From Mycobacterium saskatchewanense (lineage in GTDB: Bacteria > Actinomycetota > Actinomycetes > Mycobacteriales > Mycobacteriaceae), in assembly GCF_010729105.1 (NCBI RefSeq), contig NZ_AP022573.1:5890001-5954000 (forward strand): a DNA stretch of 64,000 nucleotides. The letters are read 5' to 3'. The notes below the pieces were generated by a model, which worked only from the letters and a program-made list of their open reading frames with translations, ran no database searches and was not told where the DNA came from. A program made the position numbers and the translations under genes. This document shows, piece after piece, positions 8,480-46,371 of this stretch; within the stretch, counting starts at the first letter, position 1, and every line of letters starts with the position of its first letter.

Positions 8480-8495
8480 CTTAGGTAGATATGAG
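8480..8495 (+). promoter_or_regulatory. Island motif site 1 (CTTAGGTAGATATGAG), upstream of the SDR-mce operon
   Basis: This 16-mer ends 30 bp before the SDR start codon. It fits the pattern CnTAGnTAnnTATGAr that recurs upstream of most island genes. It may be an operator or a shared promoter element. Confidence 0.5.
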
Positions 8496-8525
8496 CCTCG
8501 GAGTCGCGGCGGCGGAAAGGTGCAG

Positions 8526-9353
8526 ATGTACGGGTTGGACGGCAAAGTCGCCTTCATTACCGGAGCGGCGCGAGGGCAGGGCCGCGCGCACGCAGAATTG
8601 CTGGCGAGCGCCGGCGTAGACATCATCGGAATCGACATCTGCGCACAGCTGGAGACGGTGGCTTACCCCATGTCCACGGCCGCAGACCTTGGCGACACGG
8701 CCGCCCTGGTCGAAAAGCAAGGCCGGCGCATGGTTGCCCTCCAGGCCGATGTCCGCAACGCTGCCGAAGTCCGTTCCGCCGTGCAGCACGGCGTGGCGGA
8801 ATTCGGACGCCTCGACATCGTGCTGGCCAATGCGGGCATCATGGCACACAGCCTGCCGCCCTACGCCAATTCAGAACAGGCGTGGAAAGATTCGATCGAC
8901 ACGATGCTTACGGGCGTGTGGAATACGTTGCAGGCCACCGTGCCCGCGCTGATCGCGGGCCAACGCGGGGGCGCCATCGTCATCACCAGCTCGGCGGCGG
9001 GCTTACGCGCCCAAACCACGGAACGTTCGGGTGGAGCTGACGGCTATTTCGCTGCCAAGTTCGGCGTCGTCGGATTGATGAAAGCGTACGCGGGATCGCT
9101 TGGCGAACATAACATCCGCGTAAATTCACTGCACCCCTGTGGTGTGAAAACCCCCATGGTGGTCAACGACTTCTTCCCGCGCTGGATCGATGCACACCCC
9201 AAAACGGCCACCGCGCTTGTCAACGCATTGCCGGCCGAAATGATCGAGACCACAGATGTGTCCAACGCGGTGCTGTATCTGGTCTCGGACGCAGGCCGTT
9301 TCGTGACCGGTTCGACGCTTACCGTCGACGCGGGCTTGACCACCGTTAATTGA
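8526..9353 (+). CDS. Mycofactocin-coupled-type short-chain dehydrogenase/reductase
   Basis: A 275-residue NAD-dependent alcohol or hydroxy-lipid dehydrogenase. The ATG at 8526 follows GGAAAGG. The cofactor loop reads TGAARGQGRAHA, and DIIGIDICAQL follows the second strand. GQGR(A/S)HA together with IDIC and the inserted acidic segment (ADLGDTAALVEKQGRRMVA) is typical of the mycofactocin-coupled SDR group, which holds its nicotinamide tightly and passes electrons to mycofactocin. ANAGIM, ITSSAAG and the catalytic YFAAK follow. It is the first gene of the mce operon, 16 bp before the aldehyde dehydrogenase. Substrate unknown; the context suggests an alcohol imported or produced by the island. 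Confidence 0.87.
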   Translation: MYGLDGKVAFITGAARGQGRAHAELLASAGVDIIGIDICAQLETVAYPMSTAADLGDTAALVEKQGRRMVALQADVRNAAEVRSAVQHGVAEFGRLDIVLANAGIMAHSLPPYANSEQAWKDSIDTMLTGVWNTLQATVPALIAGQRGGAIVITSSAAGLRAQTTERSGGADGYFAAKFGVVGLMKAYAGSLGEHNIRVNSLHPCGVKTPMVVNDFFPRWIDAHPKTATALVNALPAEMIETTDVSNAVLYLVSDAGRFVTGSTLTVDAGLTTVN

Positions 9354-9369
9354 GGCGAAGGACGTTTGC

Positions 9370-10854
9370 ATGACCCGGACAGCGGCACGGCCACAAAGCT
9401 ATAGCCTCTACATCAACGGTCGATGGGTCGAGGGCGCGGCCACCGATCCACTCGTCGTGCTCAACCCGGCAACCGGAGAGCCGATCGCCGAGGTACCGAA
9501 CGGAACCGTCGCCGACGCCCAACTTGCGATCCAAGCAGCGCGGCGAGCCTTCGATGATGGGCCGTGGCCTCGGTGGTCGCCGCGACAGCGTTCGACAGTC
9601 TTGTCCCGGATGGCGCAACGGCTGCGGGCACGTTACGACGACCTGGTCGACCTGAGTATCGTCGAAGCTGGGTCCACCCGAACGCTGGCGCCTTCCTTCC
9701 AGGTTGGCATCCCGATCGAGCGATTTACCGATGTTGTCGAGCGCGTACTGCCAAGGTTCGACTTCGAGACGGCATTGCTTCCCCTGGTTACCGATTCGCT
9801 AGGGCAAGGTGTGGTGCTGCGCGAACCCGCCGGAGTTGCCAGTTTGATTACGGCGTACAACTTTCCGCTGTTCCTCAACCTGTCCAAGATAGCGCCGGCG
9901 CTAGCTGCCGGTTGCACTGCAGTGCTCAAGCCTTCGCCTTACACACCTTTGGAGGCATTGATCCTCGGAGAGATCGCCGCTGAAGCCGACCTTCCCGAGG
10001 GTGTGCTCAATATCGTCACCGGGGCCACTGACGCCAGCCACGAACTCACCGTCAACCCCATGGTTGACATCGTGTCCTTCACAGGCTCGGTCGAGGTGGG
10101 GCGCTACGTCAACCGGCAGGCCGCCGACACCTTCAAAAGAGTGGTGCTCGAACTCGGCGGCAAATCGGCAAACATCATCTGCCCTGACGCCGACCTAGAC
10201 CGCGCAGCCATTGACGTGGTCGCCGGAATGACAATCCATGCCGGTCAGGGCTGTTCACTGCTGACTCGCACGCTCGTGCACCATTCCCGCCATGACGAGC
10301 TGGTCGAGCGTGTGACCCGCACGCTCGGTCAGCTCACCGTGGGCGACCCAGCCGACTGCGCCACCGACATGGGGCCTTTGATCAGGGAGGCGCAGCGCAC
10401 CAAAGTAGAAGCGATGATCGCGCGCGCTCGCGACGAGGGAGCCGAGGTCGCCTATGGGGGCGGGAGACCCGCCCATTTGGACAAGGGGTTCTATGTCGAA
10501 CCGACGTTGCTCGTCAATGTAGACAACAGGATGAACATCGCACGCCAGGAAGTATTTGGGCCCGTTGGCATCGTCATTCCCTTCGACGACGACGATCACG
10601 CCGTCCGACTCGCCAACGACAGTGACTTCGGACTCGGCGGCGGCGTATGGTCTGCCGACCCGGTTCGCGCATACACCATCGCTCGACGACTACGTACCGG
10701 CACGGTAAGCGTCAACGGCGGTGGGGGAGCGTTACATCCAGACGCGCCGTTCGGTGGCTACAAACACAGTGGCTTGGGACGCGAATGGGGAGGGCATGGC
10801 ATTGCGGAGTTCCTTGAAGACAAGGCCGTGACGTGGCCGGTGGCCGGCGGATGA
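9370..10854 (+). CDS. NAD(P)-dependent aldehyde dehydrogenase
   Basis: A 494-residue aldehyde dehydrogenase of usual length. The cofactor-binding region SFTGSVEVGR, the catalytic Glu motif LELGGKSANI and the catalytic Cys in HAGQGCSLLTR are intact. EVFGPV and the C-terminal PFGGYKHSGLGREWG block complete the family pattern. It should oxidise an aldehyde to a carboxylic acid, a natural second step after the SDR just upstream. Its TGA overlaps the yrbEA start (ATGA), so these two oxidoreductases are translationally joined to the transporter genes. Confidence 0.92.
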   Translation: MTRTAARPQSYSLYINGRWVEGAATDPLVVLNPATGEPIAEVPNGTVADAQLAIQAARRAFDDGPWPRWSPRQRSTVLSRMAQRLRARYDDLVDLSIVEAGSTRTLAPSFQVGIPIERFTDVVERVLPRFDFETALLPLVTDSLGQGVVLREPAGVASLITAYNFPLFLNLSKIAPALAAGCTAVLKPSPYTPLEALILGEIAAEADLPEGVLNIVTGATDASHELTVNPMVDIVSFTGSVEVGRYVNRQAADTFKRVVLELGGKSANIICPDADLDRAAIDVVAGMTIHAGQGCSLLTRTLVHHSRHDELVERVTRTLGQLTVGDPADCATDMGPLIREAQRTKVEAMIARARDEGAEVAYGGGRPAHLDKGFYVEPTLLVNVDNRMNIARQEVFGPVGIVIPFDDDDHAVRLANDSDFGLGGGVWSADPVRAYTIARRLRTGTVSVNGGGGALHPDAPFGGYKHSGLGREWGGHGIAEFLEDKAVTWPVAGG

Positions 10855-11705
10855 TCACTGAAGACGAGACCGTGGTCGTATCGGGCCCTCGCAAGTCCGG
10901 GAGTCCGAGCCGTCAGTTCCGGGACTACGCATACAGGTTCGCTGCGATGGGCAAACCTGTACGGGCGCTGGGCGGTTTCTTCCTTCTGTCCTTCGAAACC
11001 CTGACCGTCATGTGGCGCCGACCATTCGCATGGCGGGAGCTATTGCTTCAATCATGGTTTGTAGCGAGGGTTTCCCTTCTGCCAACGTTGCTACTTGCCA
11101 TCCCGTTCACTGTCCTGGCCGTCTTCACGTTCAACTACCTTCTCATGGAGTTCGGTGCTGCCGACTACTCCGGTGTCGGGGCAGGGGAGGGTACGGTCAC
11201 CCAGATCGGGCCGATCGTCACCGTGCTGGTGGTCTCGGGTGCAGGTGCGACCGCCATGTGCGCCGACTTGGGTGCTCGCACGATCCGGGAGGAACTCGAT
11301 GCTCTTCGGGTAATGGGCATCAACCCCATCCAGTCTCTGGTGGTGCCACGCGTGCTTGCCGCGATGGTGGTCGCAGTGCTGCTTTCCTCGCTGGTCATCT
11401 GGGTTGGCATAGGTGGCGGCTTCTATTTCTCCGTCTTCTTCCAGAATGTCAGTCCAGGAGCGTTCGTTTCCTCGCTGACCTTGGTCACCGGGATCAGCAA
11501 GGTGATCGTCGCCTGGATCAAGGCGGCTCTATTTGGTCTGGCGGCCGGACTGATTGCCTGCTACAAGGGTGTCACCGTGGGTCCGGGACCGGCCGCAGTC
11601 GGCAATGCCGTGAACGAAACAGTGGTCTACACCTTCGTGGCCCTGTTCGCGATCAACATCATCGCCACAGCGGTGAGCGTGTCGACCGTGGGAGCGATCG
11701 GTTGA
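10851..11705 (+). CDS. Mce-system permease YrbEA (MlaE family)
   Basis: A 284-residue integral membrane permease, one of the YrbEA/YrbEB pair of an Mce lipid importer. The start at 10851 overlaps the preceding stop by 4 bp. A cytoplasmic N-terminus and amphipathic helix precede membrane segments (LLPTLLLAIPFTVLAVFTF, IGPIVTVLVVSGAGATA, VVAVLLSSLVIWVGIGGGF). The MlaE signature IREELDALRVMGINPIQSLVVPR, the loop that contacts the MceG ATPase, is present in full over about residues 145-165. It would work with YrbEB and the MceA-F ring. No mceG lies in the window; it is normally encoded elsewhere. Confidence 0.93.
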   Translation: MITEDETVVVSGPRKSGSPSRQFRDYAYRFAAMGKPVRALGGFFLLSFETLTVMWRRPFAWRELLLQSWFVARVSLLPTLLLAIPFTVLAVFTFNYLLMEFGAADYSGVGAGEGTVTQIGPIVTVLVVSGAGATAMCADLGARTIREELDALRVMGINPIQSLVVPRVLAAMVVAVLLSSLVIWVGIGGGFYFSVFFQNVSPGAFVSSLTLVTGISKVIVAWIKAALFGLAAGLIACYKGVTVGPGPAAVGNAVNETVVYTFVALFAINIIATAVSVSTVGAIG

Positions 11706-12556
11706 GCGCGCCGACGGTGGGAGTGCGCTTCCATCATATGGGCCAAACGGTGCGCAATTTGGTCCGGGAAGCCGAACGTGTCGGCGAACAGACGAGGTTC
11801 TATGGCCGCACTATAGCCTCAGTCGGTGACGCCCTCGGTCATTACAAGATCGAGACGCTGCGATTGATAGCCCAAATGGGTTTGGGTACAGGTGCATTGG
11901 CGATCATCGGTGGGTCGGTGGTGATTGTCGGCTTTCTGACGATGATGACCGGCGCCCTTGTCGCCGTCCAGGGCTATAACCAGCTGGCGGCGACCAGCGT
12001 CGAGGCGCTAACCGGGTTCTCCTCGGCATTCTTCAACGTGCGCCTGATCTCGCCGTTGACAGCAGCAGTGGCATTGGCAGCCACCATCGGTGCCGGCGCC
12101 ACTGCGCAACTGGGCGCGATGCGCATCAATGAGGAAATCGATGCTCTGGAAGTGATGGGTATCCGCTCGGTTGCCTACCTTGCATCGACTCGCGTCGTTG
12201 CCGGCGTCGTCGTCGTCATACCCCTGTACTGCGTGGCGATGGTAATGTCTTTTCTGGCAGCACGATTCGGTACCACCGCGATCTACGGGCAGTCGACCGG
12301 CGTGTATGACCACTACTTCAATACGTTCCTGATACCGGTTGACCTAATCTGGTCGTTCCTGCAAGCCGTAGCAATAGCCGTAGTGATCATGCTGATCCAC
12401 ACCTACTACGGCTACACCGCTTCCGGCGGGCCCGCCGGGGTGGGGGAAGCCGTCGGGCGAGCGGTACGTGCTTCGCTGGTGGTCTCTGCGGCCGTCATCT
12501 TGTTTGCGTCCCTCGCGATCTACGGGCGCACCGGCAACTTCAACATGTCCGGGTAG
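11702..12556 (+). CDS. Mce-system permease YrbEB (MlaE family)
   Basis: The 284-residue partner of YrbEA. I chose TTG 11702, which overlaps the upstream stop (TTGA); ATG 11738 is the alternative and gives 272 residues. Membrane segments include LAIIGGSVVIVGFLTMMTG, VAGVVVVIPLYCVAMVMSF and LLVVSAAVILFASLAIYG-like stretches. The MlaE signature INEEIDALEVMGIRSVAYL is intact. The C-terminal TYYGYTASGGPAGVGEAVG motif is typical of YrbEB. Six base pairs separate it from mceA. Confidence 0.92.
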   Translation: MSAPTVGVRFHHMGQTVRNLVREAERVGEQTRFYGRTIASVGDALGHYKIETLRLIAQMGLGTGALAIIGGSVVIVGFLTMMTGALVAVQGYNQLAATSVEALTGFSSAFFNVRLISPLTAAVALAATIGAGATAQLGAMRINEEIDALEVMGIRSVAYLASTRVVAGVVVVIPLYCVAMVMSFLAARFGTTAIYGQSTGVYDHYFNTFLIPVDLIWSFLQAVAIAVVIMLIHTYYGYTASGGPAGVGEAVGRAVRASLVVSAAVILFASLAIYGRTGNFNMSG

Positions 12557-12561
12557 CAACC

Positions 12562-13962
12562 ATGAATGACGGACTACGACGACAACGCATCCACCCACTG
12601 TGGTGGACCGCCGCACTCGTCACCGTGGTGATTGTCCTGATCACCTTGAGCCTGGCGCAATTCAACGGGTTGCTGCGACAGAGCATTACCGTGATCCTGG
12701 CGTCCGATCGCGCCGGTCTGGTGATGAACCCGGGCGCCAAAGTCAAGCTGCGGGGTGTGCAAGTCGGCACGGTAGGCAACATCGTCGGATCCCGCCAAGC
12801 GGCGCGGCTGCAGCTGGACATAGATCCTGCGGAGATTCGCTACATTCCCGCCAACGTCCAAGCCGAGATCAAAGCGACCACTGCATTCGGCACCAAATAC
12901 GTCGATCTGATCTACCCCGACAAGCCCACACCCGCCCGACTCAAAGCCGGAGAGGTCCTGTATTCGCGCAACATCACCACCGAAGTAAACACCGTCTTTC
13001 AGAATCTCGTCGACGTACTCAAATCCGTAGACCCGGCCAAGGTCAACGCGGTCATTAGTGCCCTCGCCGAGGGATTGCGCGGGCGCGGCCAGCGCATGGG
13101 CGAAGCCATCACCGCCGCGAACGAGGTACTGACCGCCTACAACGCAAGGGTGGATACCGTCGGACGTGACTGGCGATCGTTCAACGAGTTCAGCAAGGCC
13201 TATGACGTCGCGGCAAACGACATCCTGACCACGCTGGACGCTGCCAGCACGACGAGCACCACACTCAGCGCTCATGCTAAGGAGCTGGATAGTCTGCTGC
13301 TCAACGTCATTGGATTCTCACGCAGCGGTGTCGCCCTGGTGGGCCCCAACCTCGACAACCTCATCGATGGCATCAATGGCCTGCAACCGACCACTGACCT
13401 CTTACGAAAGTACAACCCGGAATACACCTGCATGCTGGTGGGTGCCAAGTACTACATGGATCACGGCGGCCTGCAAACCCGTGGAGGCAACGGCTATTCG
13501 CTCGTTATCGACAGCGGCCTCCTCTTTGGCAAAGATCCCTACATTTATCCCGACAACCTGCCGTTCGTCGCGGCCAAGGGTGGCCCCGGCGGCCAACCTA
13601 GCTGCGGTTCACTGCCTGACGTCTCCAAGAACTTCCCGGTGCGCCAGCTCATCACCAACACCGGTTGGGGCACCGGCCTGGACATCCGTACCAACCCGGG
13701 CATCGGGCATCCGTGCTGGGCTGACTTCCTGCCCGTCACACGCGCCGTGCCGGAGCCGCCGAGCATTCGGCAATGCATCCCGGGGCCGGCGCCCGGGCCG
13801 GCGGTACCCGCGGGTGCGCCGCCCTACGGCGCGCCGCAATACGCCGCCGACGGCAGTCCCCCTGGCCCGGCACCGCAAGGCGCAGCGCTACAAAACAGCG
13901 AAACCGCACCACCCAATCCCGCGACCGTGACGTCAGCGCCGTCCGCTGCGGGGCCTAATTAG
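12562..13962 (+). CDS. MceA-type substrate-binding protein
   Basis: A 466-residue MlaD/MCE-domain protein, first subunit of the six-protein Mce assembly. One N-terminal membrane segment (WWTAALVTVVIVLITLSLA, about residues 14-32) anchors it. The MCE domain follows (DRAGLVMNPGAKVKLRGVQVG, then the conserved TKYVDLIYPDKP). The long helical region forms the tunnel. A Cys-containing region (YTCMLVGAKYYMD) and a Pro/Ala-rich tail end the protein. It appears intact although mceD and mceE downstream are broken. Confidence 0.92.
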   Translation: MNDGLRRQRIHPLWWTAALVTVVIVLITLSLAQFNGLLRQSITVILASDRAGLVMNPGAKVKLRGVQVGTVGNIVGSRQAARLQLDIDPAEIRYIPANVQAEIKATTAFGTKYVDLIYPDKPTPARLKAGEVLYSRNITTEVNTVFQNLVDVLKSVDPAKVNAVISALAEGLRGRGQRMGEAITAANEVLTAYNARVDTVGRDWRSFNEFSKAYDVAANDILTTLDAASTTSTTLSAHAKELDSLLLNVIGFSRSGVALVGPNLDNLIDGINGLQPTTDLLRKYNPEYTCMLVGAKYYMDHGGLQTRGGNGYSLVIDSGLLFGKDPYIYPDNLPFVAAKGGPGGQPSCGSLPDVSKNFPVRQLITNTGWGTGLDIRTNPGIGHPCWADFLPVTRAVPEPPSIRQCIPGPAPGPAVPAGAPPYGAPQYAADGSPPGPAPQGAALQNSETAPPNPATVTSAPSAAGPN

Positions 13963-13974
13963 CGAGGTGCATTG

Positions 13975-15006
13975 ATGGCAAAGAACTTTCATTCCGCCGT
14001 GTTACGGCTGTCCGTATTCGTCGCGCTTTGCTTGTTGGGCGCCTTGGGACTGGTGATGGTGTTCGGCCAGCTCCGGATCGGAGGTGCCGAAAACACCTAC
14101 AACGCCGAATTCGTCAACGTATCCGGGCTTTCAGGGGGCAATTTCGTGCGGATTGCCGGAGTCGAAGTCGGCAAGGTTCAACACATATCCGTCAACTCTG
14201 CAGGACACGCCCTGGTAGCCTTTGCGGTCGACCGCGCCGTCCAGCTGACCGACACGACTCGGGCCCTTATCCGCTACGACAACCCCATCGGGGGCAGATA
14301 TCTGGAGTTGCAGAAGGGCGCCGCTGTCGGCAAACGCTTGGCACCGCACGCCACGATACCGGTTGACCGGACCCGGCCGGCCTTGGACCTCGACGCCCTG
14401 ATCGGCGGTTTTCGTCCGCTCTTTCGTGCCCTGAGTCCCGCTCAAGTCAATGCGTTGTCAACGCAACTGATTCAGGCATTCCAGGGCCAGGGCACCACCA
14501 TCAATGCGCTGTTCACTCAGACTGCGGCATTCACCAACACGCTTGCCGACCGCGACGCCCTGATCGGGCAAGTCGTTAACAACCTCAACACCGTGCTCGC
14601 CTCGCTTGGCCCCCAAAGCGACCAACTCGCCACTGCGGTGGACTCACTCGCTGAGCTGATGTCGACGCTCGCCGGGCATAAGACCGCCATCGCCAACTCG
14701 CTGGCCTACTCCAACGCCGCAGCGGCAAACATCGCCGATCTCCTCACCCGCGCGCGACCGTCATTGAAAGACACTGTGCAGCAGACCGATCGGGCTGCGG
14801 GAGTCGCCATGGCCGATCACGACTACCTCGACAACCTGTTAAACACCTTGCCCGACGCGTATCAAATGCTTGCTCGGCAGGGGCTCTATGGCGACTTCTT
14901 CAGCTTTTACCTCTGCGACTTGATCCTCAAACTGCCCGGCAAAGGAGGTCAGCCGGTCTACGTGAAGATAGCGGGCCAGGCGAGCGGTAGGTGTACCCCC
15001 AAATGA
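13975..15006 (+). CDS. MceB-type protein
   Basis: A 343-residue MCE-domain protein. ATG 13975 is chosen; TTG 13972 would add one residue. A membrane segment (LSVFVALCLLGALGLVMVFG) precedes the MCE domain (VNVSGLSGGNFVRIAGVEVGKV, then GGRYLELQKG). The helical part ends in the typical MceB C-terminus, LYGDFFSFYLCDLILKLPG and ASGRCTPK. The stop overlaps the mceC start (ATGA). Confidence 0.92.
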   Translation: MAKNFHSAVLRLSVFVALCLLGALGLVMVFGQLRIGGAENTYNAEFVNVSGLSGGNFVRIAGVEVGKVQHISVNSAGHALVAFAVDRAVQLTDTTRALIRYDNPIGGRYLELQKGAAVGKRLAPHATIPVDRTRPALDLDALIGGFRPLFRALSPAQVNALSTQLIQAFQGQGTTINALFTQTAAFTNTLADRDALIGQVVNNLNTVLASLGPQSDQLATAVDSLAELMSTLAGHKTAIANSLAYSNAAAANIADLLTRARPSLKDTVQQTDRAAGVAMADHDYLDNLLNTLPDAYQMLARQGLYGDFFSFYLCDLILKLPGKGGQPVYVKIAGQASGRCTPK

Positions 15007-16337
15007 AATGGTCTCTACAGCAACACAATCCGTTGGTCATCGGCGGCATTGGGCTTGGCGTCGTCGCGGCCGTAATTGCGTTCGCGTTGAACTTCCACAG
15101 CATAGGTTTCCTCAATCACACCACCGGATACACCGCCTACTTCGCCGAGGCCAGCGGCCTGGCCGCCGGTACCGATGTCCAAGTGGCCGGTCTCAAGGTC
15201 GGCAAAGTGACTGCGGTGGCGCTGGAAACGAACAAGGTCAAGGTCGAGTTCGAGGTATCCGACGACGTTCGCCTCGGCGACAGATCTGAAGCGGCCGTCA
15301 AGACCAAAGCGCTGTTGGGCACCAAGGTTCTCGAGGTGACGACCCGCGGGGACGGGCCCCTGTCAGCGCCGATTCCGCTGGACCGCACTCAGCCGGCTTA
15401 CCAGCTGACCGACGCGCTAGGCGATTTATCAACGGCCATCAGTGGATTGCATACCGACGACCTGAACCAGTCCCTGGCAACGTTAGCTCAGACTTTCGCC
15501 GACACGCCCGCCGGCTTCAAGATCGCCGTGGACGGAGTCGCGCGAATCTCACATACCCTCAGTGAACGCGACGCGCAATTGCGTAGTCTGCTCGCCAACG
15601 CCAACAAGGCGACCACCGTTTTGGCCGACCGTAGTCGCCAGATCGTCGATCTGGTCCGGGACACCAACGCCTTGCTGGCAGCGCTACGGGAGCAGCGCCA
15701 TTCGATGGACCAGATCTCATCCAATATTTCGAAGCTTTCGCAGCAACTGTCAGGGTTCATCGACGACAACCGCTCCCAGCTGCGTCCCGCCCTGGACAAG
15801 CTCAACGGCGTACTGGCCATTATCGACAACCGCAAAGAGCAGATCCAGAAGTCGATCAAGCTGCTTAATTCCTACGCCATGTCACTGGGGGAATCGGTGG
15901 CGTCGGGCCCGTTCTTCAAGGCCTACCTGGCGAATCTGGTGCCTGGACAGTTCATTCAGCCGTTTGTCGACGCTGCGTTCTCCGACCTTGGGCTTGACCC
16001 CAATGTCTTGTCACCGTCTCAACGCGTCGATCCGCCTACTGGTCAGCCCGGTACGCCTCCGCTTCCCGTTCCTTACCCCCGCACAGGGCAAGGGGGAGAA
16101 CCAAACCGCACGTTGCCAGATGCGATTACCGGTAATCCCGGCGATCCGCGCTACCCCTACCGCGAACCTCTGCCGGCGCCGCCGACCGGAGGACCGCCGC
16201 CAGGACCGCCTGCGGTCGGCTCGCCCGGGCCCACGTCGGGCCCCGCCCCTACGCCGACGTCGTTTGACGTGCCGCCGCCCCCTGCGGCGCACCCGCCACC
16301 TTCGATGACCAGGCAGGAAAGGCAGGACGGACCGTGA
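15003..16337 (+). CDS. MceC-type protein
   Basis: A 444-residue MCE-domain protein from ATG 15003, which overlaps the mceB stop. A membrane segment (IGGIGLGVVAAVIAFAL) is followed by the MCE domain (EASGLAAGTDVQVAGLKVGKV; KALLGTKVLEV). Coiled-coil-like helices (REQRHSMDQISSNISKLSQQ) come next. The last 100 or so residues are Pro/Gly-rich, as in other MceC proteins. Its stop overlaps the mceD start (GTGA). Confidence 0.92.
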   Translation: MKWSLQQHNPLVIGGIGLGVVAAVIAFALNFHSIGFLNHTTGYTAYFAEASGLAAGTDVQVAGLKVGKVTAVALETNKVKVEFEVSDDVRLGDRSEAAVKTKALLGTKVLEVTTRGDGPLSAPIPLDRTQPAYQLTDALGDLSTAISGLHTDDLNQSLATLAQTFADTPAGFKIAVDGVARISHTLSERDAQLRSLLANANKATTVLADRSRQIVDLVRDTNALLAALREQRHSMDQISSNISKLSQQLSGFIDDNRSQLRPALDKLNGVLAIIDNRKEQIQKSIKLLNSYAMSLGESVASGPFFKAYLANLVPGQFIQPFVDAAFSDLGLDPNVLSPSQRVDPPTGQPGTPPLPVPYPRTGQGGEPNRTLPDAITGNPGDPRYPYREPLPAPPTGGPPPGPPAVGSPGPTSGPAPTPTSFDVPPPPAAHPPPSMTRQERQDGP

Positions 16338-17355
16338 TGTTGCAGCGGTTAAGAGCCATTTTGTTGATGCTGCTGCCCGTTGTCCTCTTGGGAGGGATAG
16401 CCGCGGCGTCGGGTGCCGCATCCCACCCCAACCGCACGACAGTGGTGGCCTACTTCGACAACAGCAACGGAATCTTCCCGGGCGACGACGTCATGATCCT
16501 TGGTGTGCCGGTCGGCAAGATCCTTCGCATCGAGCCGCAGCCACAGCGCGCGAAGGTCACCTTTTGGGTCGACGCCAAGTACCCAGTGCCTGCGGAGGCC
16601 AAAGCGGTGATCCTGCTGCCACAGCTGATCACCGCACGCGCAATACAGCTGACACCCGCCTACACCGGTGGGCCGGTTCTGCGCAGCGGGGCCTTGATTC
16701 CGCAGGAGCGCACGGCGGTCCCGGTCGAATGGGATGACCTGCGTTCTCAGCTGCAAAAGCTCGCTGACGCACTGCAACCGACCGAACCAGGTGGCGTCAG
16801 TCCCCTAGGGGCGCTGATCAACACCGCCGCGGACAATCTCCGTGGGCAGGGCAGCCGCATTCATGACATGGTGATCGAGCTGTCCCAAACCCTTTCAGCG
16901 CTGGGTGATCACAGCGGCGATCTCTTCTCCACGATGAAGAATCTGTCGATGTTGGTGTCCGGATTGCACGACAGCGCCGAACTTCTGCGAGCGCTCAACA
17001 CAAACCTGGCGTCGGTGACTCAAGTGCTGGCTAACGACCACGACGAAGTGGGCCAGGCGATCGACAGCCTGAACACCGCGTCGGAGAAAGTGAGGACCTT
17101 CGTCGCCGACAACCGCGACGCACTGGGCACGACCGCAGACAAACTTTCCGGCATCTCTCAGGCGCTCGTCGCCAGTCTCGATGACATCAAACAAACGCTG
17201 CACGTCGCCCCCACCGCATTCCAAAACTTCCTCAACATCTACGAGCCCGCTCACGCGTCACTGACCGGGGCGTTAGCGCTCAACAACTTTGCCAACCCGA
17301 TCACTGAGCCGTCCCGGCGTTTCCGGAGACTCCCGATCTTGGGAGGATCTGGGTT

Positions 17356-19690: not shown

Positions 19691-19726
19691 GCCGTCCCGG
19701 TGAGTCCGGAGACTGCATTCGTTGAA

Positions 19727-36969: not shown

Positions 36970-37006
36970 TTCGAACCTCCTGTCGCCGACTACCCATCAT
37001 ATTAGT

Positions 37007-37022: not shown

Positions 37023-37079
37023 GCAAGGCGCTAAACACTCCCGAGGAGTCAGCGCAACAGCGCCAGCAGGCAAAACTGA

Positions 37080-37847: not shown

Positions 37848-37894
37848 AAGCGGCTTCCTTCGTCGAGTTGCGCGGCTGACGGAGGGTAAACCTC

Positions 37895-37928
37895 CTGTCT
37901 ATATAAGTATCTATGATGTCCTAGACAG
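37895..37928. promoter_or_regulatory. Palindromic operator candidate upstream of the GntR gene (site 6)
   Basis: Arms CTGTCTA (37895-37901) and TAGACAG (37922-37928) form a perfect inverted repeat around 20 bp. Inside, TGTCCTAGACA (37917-37927) is a second dyad with the GT...AC spacing common to GntR operators. The minus strand also carries the island motif CATAGATACTTATATA (37900-37915). It lies 48-81 bp upstream of the regulator start, fitting autoregulation. Confidence 0.6.
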
Positions 37929-38101
37929 ATTGAGCAAACACGCGCTATGCCGCGGGGACTTGGACTGCGCACCGCGGGGGAGACGGCCATGAGCCCCGGG
38001 GAACCGCACGGGATCGGACGCAGGTAGCCGCGGAGGTAGGCGGTGTCGGCTAGTCCGCAAACCCACCACCCATGCTATGCCCGGCCCAGGCTCTCCGTTA
38101 T

Positions 38102-38117
38102 CCTAGTTATAGATGAA
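38102..38117 (+). promoter_or_regulatory. Island motif site 7 (CCTAGTTATAGATGAA), upstream of the acyl-CoA synthetase
   Basis: The 16-mer ends 28 bp before the GTG start. It matches site 10 (CCTAGTTGTATATGAA) at 14 of 16 positions. Confidence 0.5.
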
Positions 38118-38145
38118 GGATCATTTTGCCGAGAGGATGTGACAC

Positions 38146-39768: not shown

Positions 39769-39890
39769 GGGGCCCGCAGCCCACCGGCACTCATTCTTGA
39801 GCTGCGGACGTGGGCAATGGGTCTGGGCATGAAGTCGTCATTGTCGCGCGTTGCGTCGCGCGACCGCCGGGATGGTTGCTATCTCCTTCA

Positions 39891-39912
39891 ATTATTACTA
39901 GGATATCTATGA
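39891..39912 (+). promoter_or_regulatory. Island motif variant (ACTAGGATATCTATGA), upstream of the second P450
   Basis: TTACTAGGATATCTATGA lies 53 bp before the P450 start. It is like the other sites but has six rather than five bases between TAG and TATGA. The right half TAGGATA equals that in site 10 read forward. Confidence 0.42.
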
Positions 39913-39965
39913 CTGCAGTCACACCGTCTGAGTTAAGCTCCGATGCTTTGGAGGCATGAGAAGAA

Positions 39966-41177
39966 ATGGCGGCTCCGTTGACCCGACCTTTGCCGAGCCA
40001 CATACCGGCCGAGTTGGTGCGCGATATCGACATTGTCAACGATGCCGACGTGCTTGCCGACCCCTATGCTGCGTTCGATCGATTGCGCGACGAAGCAGAT
40101 ATTCTGTGGTCACCGCAGCTGGGCGGTCATTGGATCGTCCTGGGGGCGCAGTTGGTGCGTGAGGCGTTCCAGAATCCGGACGCTTTCAGCAACTATCCCA
40201 CCGGCGTGCCGCCGATGACCGAGTTCTGGCCGCGCAAGCTCATTCCGCAGGAACTGGACGGTGACGAGCACACCCGGTACCGCCGTCTGCTGAGCCCCTT
40301 CTTCAAGCCGTCGGCCGTTCGTCCGATGGCTGAGTCTGTGACTCGGCGGGCTCGGGAACTCATTGGCGCGGTTGCCGATCGAGACGAGTTCGAATTCATC
40401 AGCGCGGTGGCGACTCCACTGCCATCGACGGTGTTCATGGACTTATTCGGGCTGCCGCTGGACCAAGCCGACGTTTTCACGATGTGGACCCAACAATTGC
40501 TGCACTCGGCTGATGTCACCGTGTCGGCACGGGCCGCGCACAGCGTGGTCGATTACTTGCTTGACCTCATCGGACAGCGACGCGCGGCACCGCAAGATGA
40601 TCTGATCAGCGCCCTGGTCACCGCCGAAGTTGAAGGTCGGCCGTTGAGTACCGACGAATTGCTCGACACGACCTTCTTGCTGTTCATCGCCGGATTGGAC
40701 ACCGTGACCGCGCAGCTGGGCGTTGTGGTCAATTGCCTCGCACGTGATGGCGAGGTGCAACGACAACTCCGGGCCGACCCGGCGCAGGTCCCCGTCGCGC
40801 TTGAGGAGCTGCTCAGGCTGTATCCGATTGTGCCGCCGGCAAGAACGTTGATCAAAGACTACGAACTCGGCGGTGTCTCGATGAAGGCGGGTGACACCGT
40901 GCTACTCGCCACCAGCGCCGCGAGCCGCGACCCACACGCCTATCAGAATCCGCGGCAGCTGGAGATCGGAAGAACGGGAGCGTCGACGGCGGCATTCGGC
41001 ATGGGCCCGCACCGCTGCCTGGGGTCGCATCTCGCGAGGCAGGAATTGACCATCGTGTTGCAGCTCATGATCGAAATGCTTCCCGAGTACGAGTTAGCGC
41101 GTGACTTCGAGCCGAAATGGCATACCGCGGGCAATGTTTGGGGTATCGACGCGCTACGGCTGCGATTGAAGCGATAG
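39966..41177 (+). CDS. Cytochrome P450 (second)
   Basis: A 403-residue soluble P450. Signatures: DGDEHTRYRRLLSPFFKP (C-helix region), FIAGLDTVTAQ (I-helix), LEELLRLYP (E-x-x-R), and FGMGPHRCLGSHLARQE (heme loop). It resembles the P450 at 23699-24913 in the AGLDTV and GSHLAR features, so the two may be related paralogues. Probably monocistronic with its own motif site. Confidence 0.93.
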   Translation: MAAPLTRPLPSHIPAELVRDIDIVNDADVLADPYAAFDRLRDEADILWSPQLGGHWIVLGAQLVREAFQNPDAFSNYPTGVPPMTEFWPRKLIPQELDGDEHTRYRRLLSPFFKPSAVRPMAESVTRRARELIGAVADRDEFEFISAVATPLPSTVFMDLFGLPLDQADVFTMWTQQLLHSADVTVSARAAHSVVDYLLDLIGQRRAAPQDDLISALVTAEVEGRPLSTDELLDTTFLLFIAGLDTVTAQLGVVVNCLARDGEVQRQLRADPAQVPVALEELLRLYPIVPPARTLIKDYELGGVSMKAGDTVLLATSAASRDPHAYQNPRQLEIGRTGASTAAFGMGPHRCLGSHLARQELTIVLQLMIEMLPEYELARDFEPKWHTAGNVWGIDALRLRLKR

Positions 41178-41362
41178 ACGCAAGGAATTGCCGGACGCTT
41201 ATGCTTGCGGCGAAAGCCACGTGGCCACCGGCCCCCAACGGCGACGTCATGGCACCTCGACCGTGACATGCCATCATTCATGGCAAGGGGCATCGGATTC
41301 GGCTTGCGACATCATGACTCGGTCATCCTCTTGACGGCAAGACCCAACGGCCGCACCTGCTG

Positions 41363-41377
41363 CTCATATCTTGATCG
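41363..41377 (-). promoter_or_regulatory. Weak island-motif candidate upstream of the SDR
   Basis: CTCATATCTTGATCG read on the minus strand ends in ATATGAG as in sites 1 and 4, but the TAG half is lost. It lies 76 bp before the SDR start. Confidence 0.22.
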
Positions 41378-41452
41378 ACCGGCCGGGTGACTGTTCCCCA
41401 CCCGCCACCCCATTGGTCACGGAACGTCCGAGTGGAAAGGAATTCGCTGCGC

Positions 41453-42205
41453 ATGGAGATCATCAACGCCGTCGCTGTCGTGACGGGCGGCGCCTCCGGG
41501 CTCGGTCTGGCCACCGCGAAGCGCTTGTTGGGAGCCGGGGCAAGTGTGGTCGTAATCGATCTCAAAGGCGAGGAAACCGTCGCAGAGCTAGGCGATCGCG
41601 CCAAGTTCGTAGCCACCGACGTCGCCGACGAGGTAGGCGTAGCCGAGGCCCTCGACGTTGCGGAATCGCTGGGCCCGCTGCGCATCAACGTGAACTGTGC
41701 CGGCATCGGCACCGCCACGAGAACATTGGGTCGATCCGGCCCCTTCCCGCTGGCGGAATTCGCGAAAACTGTTGAGGTCAACCTCATCGGTACTTTCAAC
41801 GTGCTGCGGCTGGCCGCCGAGCGCATCGCCAAGACGGAGCCGCTCGGAGAAGAGCGCGGCGTCATCATCAACACCGCGTCGGTCGCCGCGTTCGAGGGTC
41901 AGATCGGCCAGGCCGCCTACTCGGCGTCGAAGGGCGGCGTGGTCGGCATGACCCTGCCGATCGCGCGCGACCTGTCCCGCGACCTGATCCGCGTCGTGAC
42001 CATCGCGCCCGGGTTGTTCAGGACGCCATTGCTCGGCTCGCTTCCGGATAAGGCCCAGAAGTCGCTGGGCCAACAAGTGCCGCACCCCTCGCGCCTGGGC
42101 GACCCCGACGAGTACGGCGCGCTGGCCGTGCACATCATCGAGAACCCGATGCTCAACGGCGAGGTCATCCGCCTGGACGGCGCCATCCGCATGGCTTCGA
42201 GGTGA
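41453..42205 (+). CDS. SDR-family 3-hydroxyacyl-CoA dehydrogenase-like protein
   Basis: A 250-residue short-chain dehydrogenase from ATG 41453. Cofactor loop [18 protein letters not shown], catalytic [21 protein letters not shown] with Ser, Tyr and Lys, and [10 protein letters not shown]. The combination [21 protein letters not shown] with [13 protein letters not shown] is that of type-2 3-hydroxyacyl-CoA dehydrogenases (HSD17B10-like). It could carry out the 3-hydroxy oxidation of a conventional beta-oxidation turn. Confidence 0.87.
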
Positions 42206-42314
42206 TCCTCATCGCGATCGCGGCCAGCTTTGGGTCGTGGGCGTCAAGTCGCCATCGGGCCGGGTCGTCACCGCGCCGGCCCGGCCAGAGCGGCGAGACA
42301 CACATCCTTCCATG

Positions 42315-42330
42315 CTCATAGTTATCTACG
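42315..42330 (-). promoter_or_regulatory. Island motif site 9 (CGTAGATAACTATGAG), upstream of the third P450
   Basis: The minus-strand 16-mer matches site 3 at 12 of 16 positions. The plus strand also reads CATAGTTATCTACGAT, close to the same pattern, showing that the motif is nearly symmetrical. It lies 44 bp before the P450 start. Confidence 0.48.
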
Positions 42331-42373
42331 ATAGACTTCATAAACCCCACGGGATTGCAATGAGGAGCCCCCC

Positions 42374-43615
42374 ATGTCGCATGGCGTCGTCCTGCACGAA
42401 GAGGACCTGCCCGCGTTAGACGTCCTTGGCGAGACGTTTAAACGGGATCCGCATAGCGCTATCGCCGCGGTCCGCGCGTCGTCTCGGTTCGCGTTTAGCC
42501 GCAGGGGCATTGAAGTTCTGGCGCACGACGATGTACTCACGCTGCTGAAAGACGATCGGCTCCAAAGTCAGACGCACACAACGTATGAAGCCTACGGTGC
42601 GGGCCGGATGCTGCGTGCCTTCGCTTCCGACGGGCTTCTTGTCGGTATGCAGGGCGAGCGCCATGATCGCATCCGTCGTGTCTTTCTGGCGGCGTTTCGT
42701 GCGCGAATGGTTGAGCAGGAACGTGAACTGATGCGCGATGTGGCTCGCCGATTAGCTGGTCGCATGCTGGCCGCTGGACCCTCCCACGACTTTGTGTCGG
42801 CCTTTACCAGCCCTTACCCGATGGAGGTACTCTGCCGCATCCTCGGCATACCCGCCGACGACATCCCGGAATTCTCCGCTGCGGCGACAGAACTGCACCT
42901 CCTGGCTCAGGTTCCGCTATCTCCCGGTCTGCCCCGGGTCGAGTCGGCGCTGCACACCCTTTGGGACTACTGCTCGAATCTCATTGCCCAACGCCGATCC
43001 CATCGACAAGCTGACACCATCTCGGCTCTGATTGAGGCCCAGGAGACGCACGGCAAATTGTCTGACTCTGAACTCATCTGGAACATGGTGAACCTCATCT
43101 TTGCCGGACAGGACACCACTCGTTATCAGCTGGCCTCGTCGGTTCGCGCGATTGTTGACGTCCCCGGATTGTGGGATCGACTGGTCGCCGAACAGGACGT
43201 CATTCCCGGCGTCGTCGAGGAGTCGCTGCGCTGGTACCCGGTGGTGAACTTCGTCGTCCGCATTCCTACCGAGGATTTGGTCTTCGGCGGCGTCGAGATG
43301 CGTGCGGGACGGCGCGTCATCCTCAACTTCCAGGCGGCCAGCCGCGACCCGGAGCGATTCGACGATCCGTTCACTTTCACCCCGCGACCGCCGGGCCGGC
43401 ACCCCCAGTCTTTCGACATACCCTTCGGGCTAGCTACCCACTTCTGCCTGGGCGCCGCCCTGGCGCGTGCGGAAATCCAAGAAGCACTGCGTATCTTGAG
43501 TCACGAATTCGCCAGCGTCGAGATCGCCGGGACGCCCGAGATGACCGCCCCGGCAAGCATGCTCTACGGGCCGGAGACGATGCCCATCTTGACGACTCGG
43601 CGGTGGGCGAGTTGA
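42374..43615 (+). CDS. Cytochrome P450 (third)
   Basis: A 413-residue P450, more distant from the other two. C-helix region MQGERHDRIRRVFLAAF; I-helix FAGQDTTRYQ; E-x-x-R in VEESLRWYPV; heme loop FGLATHFCLGAALARAE. In the heme loop the second conserved Gly of FGxGxHxCxG is replaced by Ala (FGLATHFCLG), a tolerated but less common variant. ATG 42374 follows GAGGAGCC-like purine-rich sequence. Confidence 0.9.
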   Translation: MSHGVVLHEEDLPALDVLGETFKRDPHSAIAAVRASSRFAFSRRGIEVLAHDDVLTLLKDDRLQSQTHTTYEAYGAGRMLRAFASDGLLVGMQGERHDRIRRVFLAAFRARMVEQERELMRDVARRLAGRMLAAGPSHDFVSAFTSPYPMEVLCRILGIPADDIPEFSAAATELHLLAQVPLSPGLPRVESALHTLWDYCSNLIAQRRSHRQADTISALIEAQETHGKLSDSELIWNMVNLIFAGQDTTRYQLASSVRAIVDVPGLWDRLVAEQDVIPGVVEESLRWYPVVNFVVRIPTEDLVFGGVEMRAGRRVILNFQAASRDPERFDDPFTFTPRPPGRHPQSFDIPFGLATHFCLGAALARAEIQEALRILSHEFASVEIAGTPEMTAPASMLYGPETMPILTTRRWAS

Positions 43616-44458
43616 AGCAAGCTTGGCGCAGACGCCTCATTGCGAATCGTTAGGTCGACGGCGCGCATACAGGACGCAAGGGTCGTAAGAGGCAGTCGCA
43701 CAACCGAACCTCATTGGACGTCGGCGGCGAAGAGACGAGGGATATGACGCGCAGACACCATTACGCTCCGGGATGCCCAATGGAACTCGCCGCGGCGCAG
43801 ACGATACGTACGCCACAGGTTGCCGACGCGAAATGTGGCGGAGAGGTCGTGCTCCCGTGGACGGTCGCACGGCAGTGAACAAGGCGAGGATGGGCGCATG
43901 GAGATAAGGGCGACGTCGGCCGGTCGAGCGCGAGAGGCATGGCGGCCAGTCGAAGTGTTTCTCGCCGATGGCCTCACGCGGGGTCAGGTGAACGCAGAAC
44001 TGCGCAGCGCTGCAATGCGGACAGCGTCCGACTGCGGCGAGTTCGTGCGGGCGATCCGGATCGAGGGGACCGAAGCGCACACCGGGGGCTGGCGCAGATG
44101 GCGCGCGTCTTACCTGCTTGGCCCCCCTCGGATGTTCCGGGGGGCCATACAGGGGCTGGCGCGCACTGAAAGTCCTGCTGGCGCTGGGGGGTCGAAGTCA
44201 ATTCGCGACATGCGCAGTGCCCGCGGAGAAGGATGGGAGCGTCCGCGGCCGAATAATCCCGACGGCTGCCTGGGCAATCACGGTGGCTCAAAGGAGCCGA
44301 ATCGCCCGAAACAGCCCGGTCCTGAAACGAGGGATACCGACAGTGGCCAGCTGCGTGTCGGAACATCGCCTGGCTGTCAGGACGGCGCATGAACACCGTC
44401 CGAACGTGCCCTTTTGCCAGACGTTTTGCCGAAGGATGCGAGTGATGGGGGGAGCGAT
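43616..44458. other. 843-bp stretch without a convincing gene
   Basis: The open frames here are Arg/Ser/Pro-rich and share no motif with known proteins. One minus-strand segment, RVGNLWRTYRLRRGEFHWAS near 43737-43830, looks more protein-like and might be a remnant, but I cannot name it. No tRNA, IS end or copy of the island motif was found. Confidence 0.45.
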
Positions 44459-45346
44459 ATGAGCCCGCGCCTCCGGTTCTGGAATTCGGTGATCCACTTG
44501 CCGGTCACCGAAATGCTGCCATTGGCCAAACACGCCGAAGACCTGGGATTCGAAGGGGTGATGAGCCCCGACCACTTGGTGTGGTGGGGCGAGGAGATCA
44601 CGTCGAAGTACCCCTTCAACGCGAGTGGCGATGTGTGGTGGCCCGAAGAAGCGCACTGGCCAGATCCCTGGGTCTCGGCGGCAGCCATGGCGGCCGTCAC
44701 GTCTCGCGTCCGATTCGGGCATCACGTGTACGTCCTGCCCTTGCGTGATCCGATCAACGTCGCGAAGGCGGTCGCCACGACGGCGGCCGTGGCAGGAGGG
44801 CGAGTGGTCTTCGCCTTCGGCGTGGGCTGGATGCGTGAAGAGTTCGATTTGGTCGGCCAACAGTTCGCCCGCCGCGGCCGGCGCACCGACGAAATGCTGG
44901 ACGTCCTAAAAAAGCTGTGGACCGGCGAGCGGGTCAGTCACCACGGCGAGTTCTACAACTTCACCAACATCTCGATGCGGCCATTCCCGCCGGAGTCGAT
45001 CCCGTTGATCGCGGGAGGCCACTCGGAGTCGGCGCTACGTCGAGCCGCCAGCAGATGTGACGGCTGGCTCGGTGCGTCACGGTTCACCCCAGACGGCTTG
45101 ATCTCCATCGTGGACCGGCTGAAGGAATACCGCGCCGACGCCGGGCGTGAAGGCATGCCGTTCGACATCCTGATCTCACTCGGCAAGCGTGACCACAACC
45201 CCGACACTTTGAGCAAGGTGGCCGATCTCGGTGTCACCGGCCTGATGGTGGCGCCGTGGACGATCTTCCCGAACGACCGAATTGATTCGCTCGTCGGGAA
45301 AATGACTGCTATGGACGACTTTGCGAAGGCGTTCATGACTCCGTGA
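44459..45346 (+). CDS. LLM-class F420-dependent oxidoreductase (TIGR03619-like)
   Basis: A 295-residue luciferase-like oxidoreductase from ATG 44459, directly after a GGGGGGAG ribosome site. FWNSVIHLPVTEMLPLAKHA, LGFEGVMSPDHLVW, VRFGHHVYVLPLRDPINVAK, GGRVVFAFGVGWMREEF and IPLIAGGHSESALRRAASRC are typical. The N-terminal WNSV/HLP replaces the common G-x-x-x-P opening. Probable hydride transfer with F420; substrate unknown. It converges on the dehydrogenase gene with 47 bp between. Confidence 0.88.
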   Translation: MSPRLRFWNSVIHLPVTEMLPLAKHAEDLGFEGVMSPDHLVWWGEEITSKYPFNASGDVWWPEEAHWPDPWVSAAAMAAVTSRVRFGHHVYVLPLRDPINVAKAVATTAAVAGGRVVFAFGVGWMREEFDLVGQQFARRGRRTDEMLDVLKKLWTGERVSHHGEFYNFTNISMRPFPPESIPLIAGGHSESALRRAASRCDGWLGASRFTPDGLISIVDRLKEYRADAGREGMPFDILISLGKRDHNPDTLSKVADLGVTGLMVAPWTIFPNDRIDSLVGKMTAMDDFAKAFMTP

Positions 45347-45393
45347 CGCGCATGCCGGCGCGGGGCCTGCGGCCCGGTTGTTCAGCCATCCGG

Positions 45394-46275
45394 TCACCGG
45401 TTCACGGAGGCGGGGCTGGGCCCGAACTGTTGTATTCGGGGCGTGATGTGAGTGATTCGATCGACCGCGAGGTCTTCGAGTTTGGTTTGCATTACGCCAT
45501 GCTGTCGGCATGCCTGCTGAAAGAGGCGGGTGTCTTTCTCGACCATCTTGGCTGCGTGCATTGCGAACTCGGGATCCTTCATCAGCGTATCGACCAGCGA
45601 ATTCAGCGCGAAGCTCCCGGCACTGCCCGTGGTGAGGACGTCGATTAAGGCGTTAAGGTCGAGCTTGAGCGCTACGCCTGTCTCGATGGCGAGATTCGCC
45701 AGCTCCCCGGTCCCGAACCCCAAGACGTTGTTGAGGGCCTTGGTCACCTGGCCGGAGCCCAGCGGACCCATCCATCGGATCACCTTGCCATAGGCCTCCA
45801 AGACCGGCATCACCCGCGGCGAGAGCGTCTTTTCCCCACCCACCATGATGGTCAGTTCACCGCGCACTGCGGCCGCTCGCCCACCGCTTACGGGCGCATC
45901 AACGACATGCACGTCACGTTCGCGCGCGACGGACGCCAATTCGATACACAGCTCGGCCGACACGGTGCTGTGAATAAGCAGCACCGATCCTGGCGACATC
46001 GATGTCAGTAGGCCGTCGGGCGCCGCGGCCACCTCCCGCACATCCTCGTCGCCGAAGACGCACAGTCCCACCAGGTCGCGCCCGCGACCCAGGTCCGTCA
46101 ATGACGCCGCGACCTGGTAGCTTTCGGAACCCAATTCCGCCAAAGACGATGGCCGTCGCGCCCACACCGTTAGCGTATGCCCTGCGGCGGCGATACGGCG
46201 TGCTATCGGGCCGCCCATGTCGCCTAGGCCGACGAAGCCGATACCGCGCACCCCTGGCGACCGACTTGGATTCAT
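45394..46275 (-). CDS. NAD(P)-dependent 3-hydroxyisobutyrate dehydrogenase-family protein
   Basis: A 293-residue beta-hydroxyacid dehydrogenase. ATG 46275 has GAGGGGG 5 bp upstream; a frame extension to 46350 lacks such a site. The Rossmann start is IGFVGLGDMGGPIARRIAAA, then WARRPSS, HSTVSAEL, DAPVSGGRAAA (substrate loop) and GPLGSGQVTKALNN, whose Lys is the catalytic base of the family. It could oxidise a 2-methyl-3-hydroxy acid, a plausible product of branched-chain degradation; the substrate is inferred only. Confidence 0.88.
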   Translation of the reverse strand: MNPSRSPGVRGIGFVGLGDMGGPIARRIAAAGHTLTVWARRPSSLAELGSESYQVAASLTDLGRGRDLVGLCVFGDEDVREVAAAPDGLLTSMSPGSVLLIHSTVSAELCIELASVARERDVHVVDAPVSGGRAAAVRGELTIMVGGEKTLSPRVMPVLEAYGKVIRWMGPLGSGQVTKALNNVLGFGTGELANLAIETGVALKLDLNALIDVLTTGSAGSFALNSLVDTLMKDPEFAMHAAKMVEKDTRLFQQACRQHGVMQTKLEDLAVDRITHITPRIQQFGPSPASVNR

Positions 46276-46355
46276 GCAATCCCCCTCTGCCCAAGAGGCG
46301 TTCGCTTCCGCCCGCGCTGCTCTTCGCAGCGTTGAGCCACACACCAGCATAGCGC

Positions 46356-46371
46356 TTCATATACAACTAGG
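46356..46371 (-). promoter_or_regulatory. Island motif site 10 (CCTAGTTGTATATGAA), between the dehydrogenase and the metallo-hydrolase
   Basis: The minus-strand 16-mer lies 80 bp upstream of the dehydrogenase start, in the region shared with the divergent gene at 46543. It is nearly the same as site 7. Confidence 0.5.

Follow-up and report, generated by a model that had tools for sequence, protein, structure and literature searches.

Lipid uptake and oxidation genes fill an island in the genome of Mycobacterium saskatchewanense, and a short repeated word upstream of many of them raises the question of whether one regulator controls the whole set. The DNA analysed (the window) is 64,000 nucleotides long and spans positions 5890001–5954000 of a 6.0-Mb single contig, NZ_AP022573.1; the island is its middle part (approximately 8.3–47.5 kb in window coordinates, which are used below except for seven-digit genome positions), where G+C content is 60–67% compared to 66–76% on both flanks in 1-kb steps. 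A sequence-only reading had noted the 16-bp word CnTAGwTAnnkATGAr at nine intergenic places, together with a six-spaced variant and a weak copy, and had proposed either a single regulator of the island or a shared unusual promoter element. We find that ten of these eleven places are copies of one 25-bp dyad, with consensus TCATA-nn-TA(A/T)C-nnn-G(A/T)TA-nn-TATGA, of which eight are strong and two weak. By computation, this dyad is confined to the island, co-occurs with relatives of the island's GntR/FCD protein in other bacteria, and stands before corresponding genes in rearranged clusters. It is probably the operator of that protein (encoded at 37080–37847), which would regulate the FadD, P450, luciferase-like monooxygenase–acyl-CoA dehydrogenase (LLM–ACAD), amidohydrolase–ACAD and mce operons of the island; we infer binding because the same dyad travels with the regulator in distantly related bacteria.

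A 25-bp dyad upstream of most island gene groups

All eleven reported sequences are present where they were placed, and the 16-bp word covers part (two thirds) of the real dyad, being exact in only three of the nine sites (25302, 38102 and 42315) and missing by one base at 8480, 27596, 37007 and 46356, by two at 37900 and by three at 25086. When the nine sites are aligned, a T stands 10 bases before the left edge of the word in 9/9 and a C stands 9 bases before it in 8/9, with chance probabilities of approximately 1e-7 and 1e-3, at positions that had played no part in defining the word; since conservation continues this far, the full unit is taken to be 25 bp. In the 25-bp register the supposed six-spaced variant at 39891 has normal spacing.

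Sites were scored with a symmetrised matrix built from the nine reported sites and run on the window, and in counts above a given score, overlapping matches shifted by 9 bp were taken as separate matches. The site at 39888 scores strongly (30.7) though it lies outside the training set of the matrix, while the best window match overlapping no site scores 9.9. Seven of the nine reported sites are symmetric at 6–8 of 12 pairs, the two weak ones at 3 and 4. The weak copy at 41363 is not among the 45 best matrix matches and was rejected as a dyad site. The sites are as follows.

8470–8494: candidate operator dyad TCATAGACGCCTTAGGTAGATATGA, score 27.9, before the SDR–ALDH–mce operon
8461–8485: second copy, overlapping the 8470 dyad with a 9-bp shift, score 15.0
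25087–25111: weak dyad, score 16.0, overlapping the earliest possible start codon of P450a (minus strand); unremarkable when left out of training
25292–25316: candidate operator dyad, score 23.7, before the ChsH2-like and thiolase-like genes
27597–27621: candidate operator dyad, score 34.1 (the highest in the window), before the amidohydrolase–ACAD–MaoC genes
36997–37021: candidate operator dyad, score 30.5, before the minus-strand LLM1–ACAD5–ACAD4 genes
37901–37934: weak extended dyad with overlapping registers at 37901 and 37910, score 16.4, before the GntR gene itself
38092–38116: candidate operator dyad, score 28.7, before FadD; the Nocardia alni FadD relative also has one (L087:11631)
39888–39912: candidate operator dyad, score 30.7, before P450b; the Mycobacterium sp. 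236 relative of P450b also has one (L086:13395)
42316–42340: candidate operator dyad, score 27.9, before P450c; an identical 25-mer stands before a decayed P450c copy (4987182)
46357–46381: candidate operator dyad, score 32.9, between the divergent NAD-binding_2 (minus) and metallo-beta-lactamase-fold (MBL; plus) genes

The distance of 28–92 bp from start codons given for the word holds for most sites, which lie 25–93 bp from a plausible start codon, but not for the MBL gene (161 bp) or the P450a site, which overlaps the first ATG. Likewise the motif precedes most gene groups rather than nearly every unit, since no dyad match was found upstream of the SDR gene at 41387, LLM2 at 44414 or the insertion sequence (IS) genes.

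The same dyad is found without prior knowledge of the word by a palindromic expectation-maximisation search from random seeds. Applied to the window's 32 gaps between open reading frames (ORFs), and with gene starts left as called, the search returned as its best model TCATnTnTATCnnnGATAnAnATGA, the dyad, with a log-likelihood of 77.9 compared to 45.5–56.5 in six Markov shuffles given equal seeds. Matches above 9 to this model occur in 6/20 island gaps and 0/12 other gaps. A second search on 52 upstream regions, for which four gene starts had been moved downstream with knowledge of the sites and one of 53 regions was dropped as too short, recovered ten sites and one coding match, and nothing in 18 core regions; its log-likelihood was 110.7, compared to 43.1–57.4 in four shuffles with fewer seeds, and the gntR site was found in a register shifted by 9 bp.

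Specificity within the genome and the genus

The reported word proved a poor instrument for whole-genome searches. In its exact 25-bp form it has three occurrences in the genome, all in the island, and allowing one mismatch adds 11 matches: four coincide with island dyads, the ACAD5 coding sequence contains one (5924954), one is at the decayed P450c copy (4987182) and five are elsewhere. It was dropped in favour of the symmetric pattern TCWTANNTAWCYWRGWTANNTAWGA, in view of its matches at up to two mismatches (given below with their control). With up to three mismatches the symmetric pattern has five matches in the 6.0-Mb genome and none in the reversed control; it catches five of the ten island dyads and misses the other five, and all five matches are island dyads. 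The motif therefore does not score equally well before unrelated genes. Of the loci inspected beyond the island, L008 has a match of 21.4, but this falls within coding DNA; in L004 a match of 12.6 lies between ORFs.

Across 296 other genomes of the genus, the exact extended word has 18 matches in 16 genomes compared to 17 in the reversed control. This lack of excess, together with the restriction of symmetric matches to the island, argues that the dyad is not a general promoter element, and the earlier suggestion of a shared unusual promoter element is unsupported. It is true that the dyad is A+T-rich and mostly 25–93 bp before start codons, as an unusual –10 element or an alternative sigma factor site might be. 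However, it is symmetric over 25 bp, it is absent from all 12 gaps outside the island, and a sigma-70 scan of 36900–46600 gave two sites against 1.7 expected; both touch the 46357 dyad, and the remaining dyads of the segment have none. We therefore regard a promoter element as very unlikely.

One genus genome (G110) has a single strong dyad between ORFs (L168:9577–9601, score 23.7) with a TetR gene nearby, in a cluster that holds SDR, ALDH, ChsH2-like and thiolase-like genes.

Similarity between sites could also have been carried along with duplicated or co-inherited leader DNA rather than kept by selection, and one leader has indeed been duplicated in this genome: the decayed P450c copy and its leader lie at 4987143–4987364, approximately 0.95 Mb from the island, and the matched stretch is 85% identical. 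Within it, however, none of the 25 operator columns differs, compared to 35 of 199 flanking columns. The columns flanking the nine reported sites and 24 sites outside the window likewise carry little information, so that only the 25 bp are shared, and passive carriage appears the least credible of the alternatives.

A GntR/FCD protein as the candidate regulator

The protein proposed to bind the dyad is encoded within the island.

37080–37847, minus strand: GntR (PF00392) plus FCD (PF07729) regulator

It matches PF00392 at 6.2e-17 and PF07729 at 2.5e-19, the GntR helix-turn-helix (HTH) plus FCD arrangement that places it in the FadR/FCD subfamily, and it is the only regulator among the island ORFs scanned with Pfam. 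Its profile matches are NanR, 2di3 and pyruvate dehydrogenase repressor chains; 2di3 is named LldR in PMC4494728.

Relatives of the protein in the protein database range from 89% identity downwards, and an alignment of 21 of them used as query yielded 79 named loci. Seven of these have close GntR genes (46–62% identity): Pseudonocardia sp. CNS-139, Nocardia alni (two), Dactylosporangium sucinum, Mycobacterium sp. 236, and one Cryobacterium and one Microbacteriaceae metagenome-assembled genome (MAG). The other 72 are distant FCD loci (at most 38%), of which nine with a G+C fraction below 0.58 were dropped before counting, leaving 63. With a matrix trained on window sites only, the surroundings of the seven close GntR genes hold 20 matches above 17 in 143,638 positions, with at least one in 6/7 loci, compared to three in 1,232,145 positions around the 63 distant genes, a density approximately 57-fold higher; Markov controls gave 0 and 0.33 matches for the close and distant sets respectively. 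One of the three distant matches falls in L093, whose regulator has a DNA-binding region nearly equal to that of the close relatives.

The symmetric pattern, run on six of these genomes in full (approximately 41 Mb), has ten matches, spread over four genomes and without exception on the GntR-bearing contig, and the reversed control gave one forward and one reverse match, both in N. alni; no match was found in the two MAGs among the six. The pattern was written after the locus sites had been seen, so matches there are partly circular, which does not apply to its absence from the rest of these genomes. Three of the ten stand among relatives of island genes at the far end of a 90-kb Dactylosporangium contig, at a distance of over 40 kb from its GntR gene. 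Comparative genomics thus singles out the GntR/FCD protein, one of the candidates named in the sequence-only reading, in support of the original idea of one regulator for the island: among families present in at least four of the seven genomes, GntR, which served as the bait, is the only regulator.

The dyad could instead be the operator of another regulator, such as a TetR protein (the other candidate of the sequence-only reading) controlling mce and lipid genes. The genome offers candidates, with at least 150 TetR domains (the number scored), two of them in one 411-aa frame (5992338–5993057) some 38 kb beyond the window in a double-TetR layout like that of Mce3R, and Mce3R of Mycobacterium tuberculosis regulates mce3 and lipid genes through 25-bp sites (PMC11667970). 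In the same text, however, Mce3R sites are asymmetric and without palindromes, whereas the island dyads are symmetric, and the dyad follows GntR relatives into Pseudonocardia, Nocardia and Dactylosporangium. We consider a TetR operator improbable. The 411-aa double-TetR_N frame sits in an overlapping contig end: positions 1–17935 and 5990935–6008916 are 99.4% identical over 18 kb, with 68 gap openings, resembling an untrimmed circular assembly with indel errors, and at the start of the contig the copy of this frame appears as two shorter ones.

Among GntR relatives listed across 61 genomes, none from another genome exceeds 40% identity, and of 29 loci of such relatives (L035–L063) only L039 has a match above 11 (12.5). 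Plasmid relatives are at most 42% identical, and searches for P450c and ACAD1 gave no match at strict cut-offs in 395 and 296 other genus genomes, respectively (four and six candidates scored per genome). A class-wide search of 394 genomes gave 37 listed matches, of which 29 loci were examined; since their GntR relatives are only 34–43% identical, the search addressed sister proteins and is not an independent validation. With a matrix of all sites, seven of the 29 sister loci have a match above 14, compared to four when the matrix is trained on window sites only. In L176, L179, L184 and L187, which are among those seven, the match lies within approximately 150 bp upstream of the regulator gene, weak support for a shared ancestral operator.

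Corresponding genes in other clusters

The related clusters share island enzymes, many 40–77% identical, in changed order. The dyad precedes the FadD and LLM1 counterparts of N. alni and the P450b counterpart of Mycobacterium sp. 236; P450c-like genes (40–42% identical) have it in Mycobacterium sp. 236, Dactylosporangium and the Microbacteriaceae MAG. Relatives of ACAD1 and ACAD5 are also preceded by dyads elsewhere, and in the window both lie inside dyad-headed units. Of the 24 outside sites, 17 are not within an ORF as drawn by a crude caller that takes the longest 5' end.

Operator shape and contact residues

The 11-bp central box, TA(A/T)C-nnn-G(A/T)TA, scores 10–12 at the dyad centre when each site set is scored with a box matrix from the other set. 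At 9 bp from the centre the mean box score is –0.9 for window sites and 2.4 for the others, compared to backgrounds of –16.5 and –12.5 (averages over 13–40 bp), a peak that is partly circular, because the 25-bp matrix had served to select the outside sites and the right outer box was already part of the reported word; for window sites the left outer box is free of this circularity. A lower second peak stands at 4 bp (–4.1 in the window, –0.3 elsewhere), and the profile has no clear peak at 18 or 27 bp. Overlapping matches shifted by 9 bp recur, at 8461/8470 and 37901/37910 in the window and at 3181/3190 and 8685/8694 in L163 and 1104/1113 in L165.

At the position that we align with FadR Arg35, the residue is Ser, Ala or Gly in 7/7 close relatives, and site positions 6 and 14 are mostly A/T. 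Among the 72 distant proteins the same position is Arg or Lys in 38. In FadR itself, Arg35 prefers G/C at site positions 6/14 (PMC4494728). According to the same source, FadR-subfamily operators are palindromes with 2–3 nt between half-sites, often with weaker half-sites 7–12 nt from the centre. The island operator has a palindrome with 3 nt between half-sites, and its outer half-sites, at 9 bp, fall within that range of 7–12 nt (again in part circularly).

Evidence weighing against a GntR/FCD operator

Several observations count against the dyad itself or against its reading as a GntR/FCD operator and should be set beside the support. When sites are left out of training in turn, seven stay within rank 10, whereas 37901 falls to 4.0 (rank 37) and 25087 to 8.2 (rank 17), so that position is what speaks for the membership of these two; the former is the site before gntR itself, which is thus weak and drops out under this procedure. 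With unadjusted starts and coding DNA included, a G+C-rich palindrome of coding type wins the de novo search, reaching 120.2 and 102.0 in two runs compared to 53.4–57.5 and 47.9–55.3 in shuffles, and the dyad appears later or not at all. The 25-bp word at up to two mismatches has 132 genome matches compared to 61 in the reversed control. Among the close relatives, the 47% locus L088 has a single modest site (16.7), and neither its genome nor the other MAG has a match under the stricter pattern. Comparison loci were picked by GntR similarity, so that co-inherited enzymes would track the motif too. The half-sites over ten window and 24 outside sites are TA(A/T)C and G(A/T)TA rather than the TKGT/ACMA of the subfamily. 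The residue at the Arg35 position is also small in 19 of the 72 distant proteins, and the protein has Gly at HTH position 59, a residue said to favour G/C at site positions 6 and 14, where A/T stands here.

For the mce operon in particular, the related operon beside the Mycobacterium sp. 236 cluster (L167:3297–15960, six Mce genes, 65–86% identity to the island mce genes) is without a dyad above 15, so that mce may be under such control in this genome only. Another GntR/FCD gene (36% identical) lies near that related operon.

Proposed mechanism

In the mechanism that we propose, a dimer of the GntR/FCD protein would bind the central 11-bp palindrome, and one more dimer would most likely occupy each of the outer half-boxes (TCATA and TATGA), which flank it in register at a distance of 9 bp, giving a short cooperative row of side-by-side dimers over approximately 25–35 bp. 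One central dimer is the minimal reading; three dimers are likely, because an FCD dimer can bind a 10-bp palindrome and NanR binds its triple repeat as three dimers. Bound over promoters or leaders, the protein would repress its own gene along with the operons for catabolism and uptake; these may be released once the FCD domain is occupied by a pathway intermediate, either an acid or a CoA ester.

The sign could be reversed, with the GntR/FCD protein acting as an activator from the same dyad. Some FCD proteins do activate, such as CitO, which is reported to bind upstream of cit promoters and induce expression. However, the island sites lie near start codons, so that a bound protein would more likely block RNA polymerase, and although this argument is inferential we consider activation unlikely, if less so than the TetR alternative.

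More broadly, it is possible, and on balance somewhat doubtful as a joint proposal, that this is an FCD regulator of actinobacterial lipid catabolism with a three-box, 9-bp-phased palindromic operator taking three dimers, that its TA(A/T)C specificity arose with loss of the Arg35-type contact, and that the regulon moves between genera as a package and took in the mce operon here.

Gene content of the island

Besides the regulator, the Pfam scan of the island ORFs points to lipid uptake and oxidation; the island also encodes five acyl-CoA dehydrogenases, two luciferase-like monooxygenases, three P450s and two FAS1-DH (MaoC-like) proteins. The gene groups are as follows.

8526–19690, plus strand: SDR, ALDH, two MlaE and Mce genes (mce operon), with mce4 and mce5 broken by two IS copies
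23699–25090, minus strand: cytochrome P450a
25410–27610, plus strand: ChsH2-like OB protein, thiolase-like protein and a small ORF
27629–33537, plus strand: amidohydrolase_2, ACAD1, ACAD2, two FAS1-DH (MaoC-like) genes and ACAD3
33571–37000, minus strand: ACAD4, ACAD5 and luciferase-like monooxygenase LLM1
38146–39768, plus strand: FadD-type acyl-CoA ligase
39966–43615, plus strand: P450b, SDR (41387, with no dyad of its own) and P450c
45394–47457: NAD-binding_2 dehydrogenase (minus) and MBL protein (plus)

The two IS3-like copies (rve integrase) lie within 17501–20867 in inverted orientation inside the mce operon and are 99.8% identical over 1,180 bp; one splits mce4 and the other cuts mce5. 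By tblastn, the window has no counterpart to the sixth Mce protein encoded in the operon of Mycobacterium sp. 236. Approximately 0.75 kb of the island (43650–44414) is without a convincing gene.

Comparison with known systems

Searches of an open-access library listed no paper on GntR control of mce or steroid genes through an operator of this kind. The system is probably an FCD-regulator regulon of a lipid-catabolism island with an off-consensus operator. Genes for lipid degradation that were so far anonymous can thus be read as one regulon, for which a regulator is proposed, the operator is open to testing and the targets recur across several actinobacterial genera. The operator may help to identify the inducer and, through it, what the pathway degrades, and adds a case in which an FCD regulator has an operator off the family consensus together with a changed contact residue.

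Mce3R of M. tuberculosis is alike in controlling an mce operon and lipid genes through 25-bp sites, but is a double TetR protein with asymmetric sites 53 bp apart (PMC11667970), an asymmetry that the symmetric dyads here do not share. Members of the FadR/FCD subfamily (PdhR, LldR, FadR and DgoR) share the GntR and FCD domains, the 3-nt palindrome and extra half-sites 7–12 nt out, and differ in their TKGT/ACMA half-sites, compared to TA(A/T)C and G(A/T)TA here, and in the small residue found here at the Arg35 position; PMC4494728 names NanR and BioR as other exceptions to that consensus. In the VanR-type FCD tetramer Atu1419 of Agrobacterium, an FCD dimer occupies a 10-bp palindrome (PMC7797058), so that two or more dimers could fit on a site of 25 bp. 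The Atu1419 palindromes, ATGTATACAT, differ in being 190 bp apart and bridged by looping (PMC7797058).

NanR of Escherichia coli (6on4, 6wfq and 6wg7) is the best solved-structure match by profile (E 1.6e-28). It has a 32-residue N-terminal extension, and 29 residues precede the start of the alignment in NanR compared to 17 here. Its boxes are GGTATA direct repeats, which the island sites lack, having palindromic boxes 9 bp apart instead. In the NanR operator, three dimers bind in cooperation to a box that is repeated three times (PMC8012715), and the island operator likewise has three closely spaced boxes, a central one with outer half-boxes at 9 bp (in part a circular result), at which a similar stoichiometry may apply.

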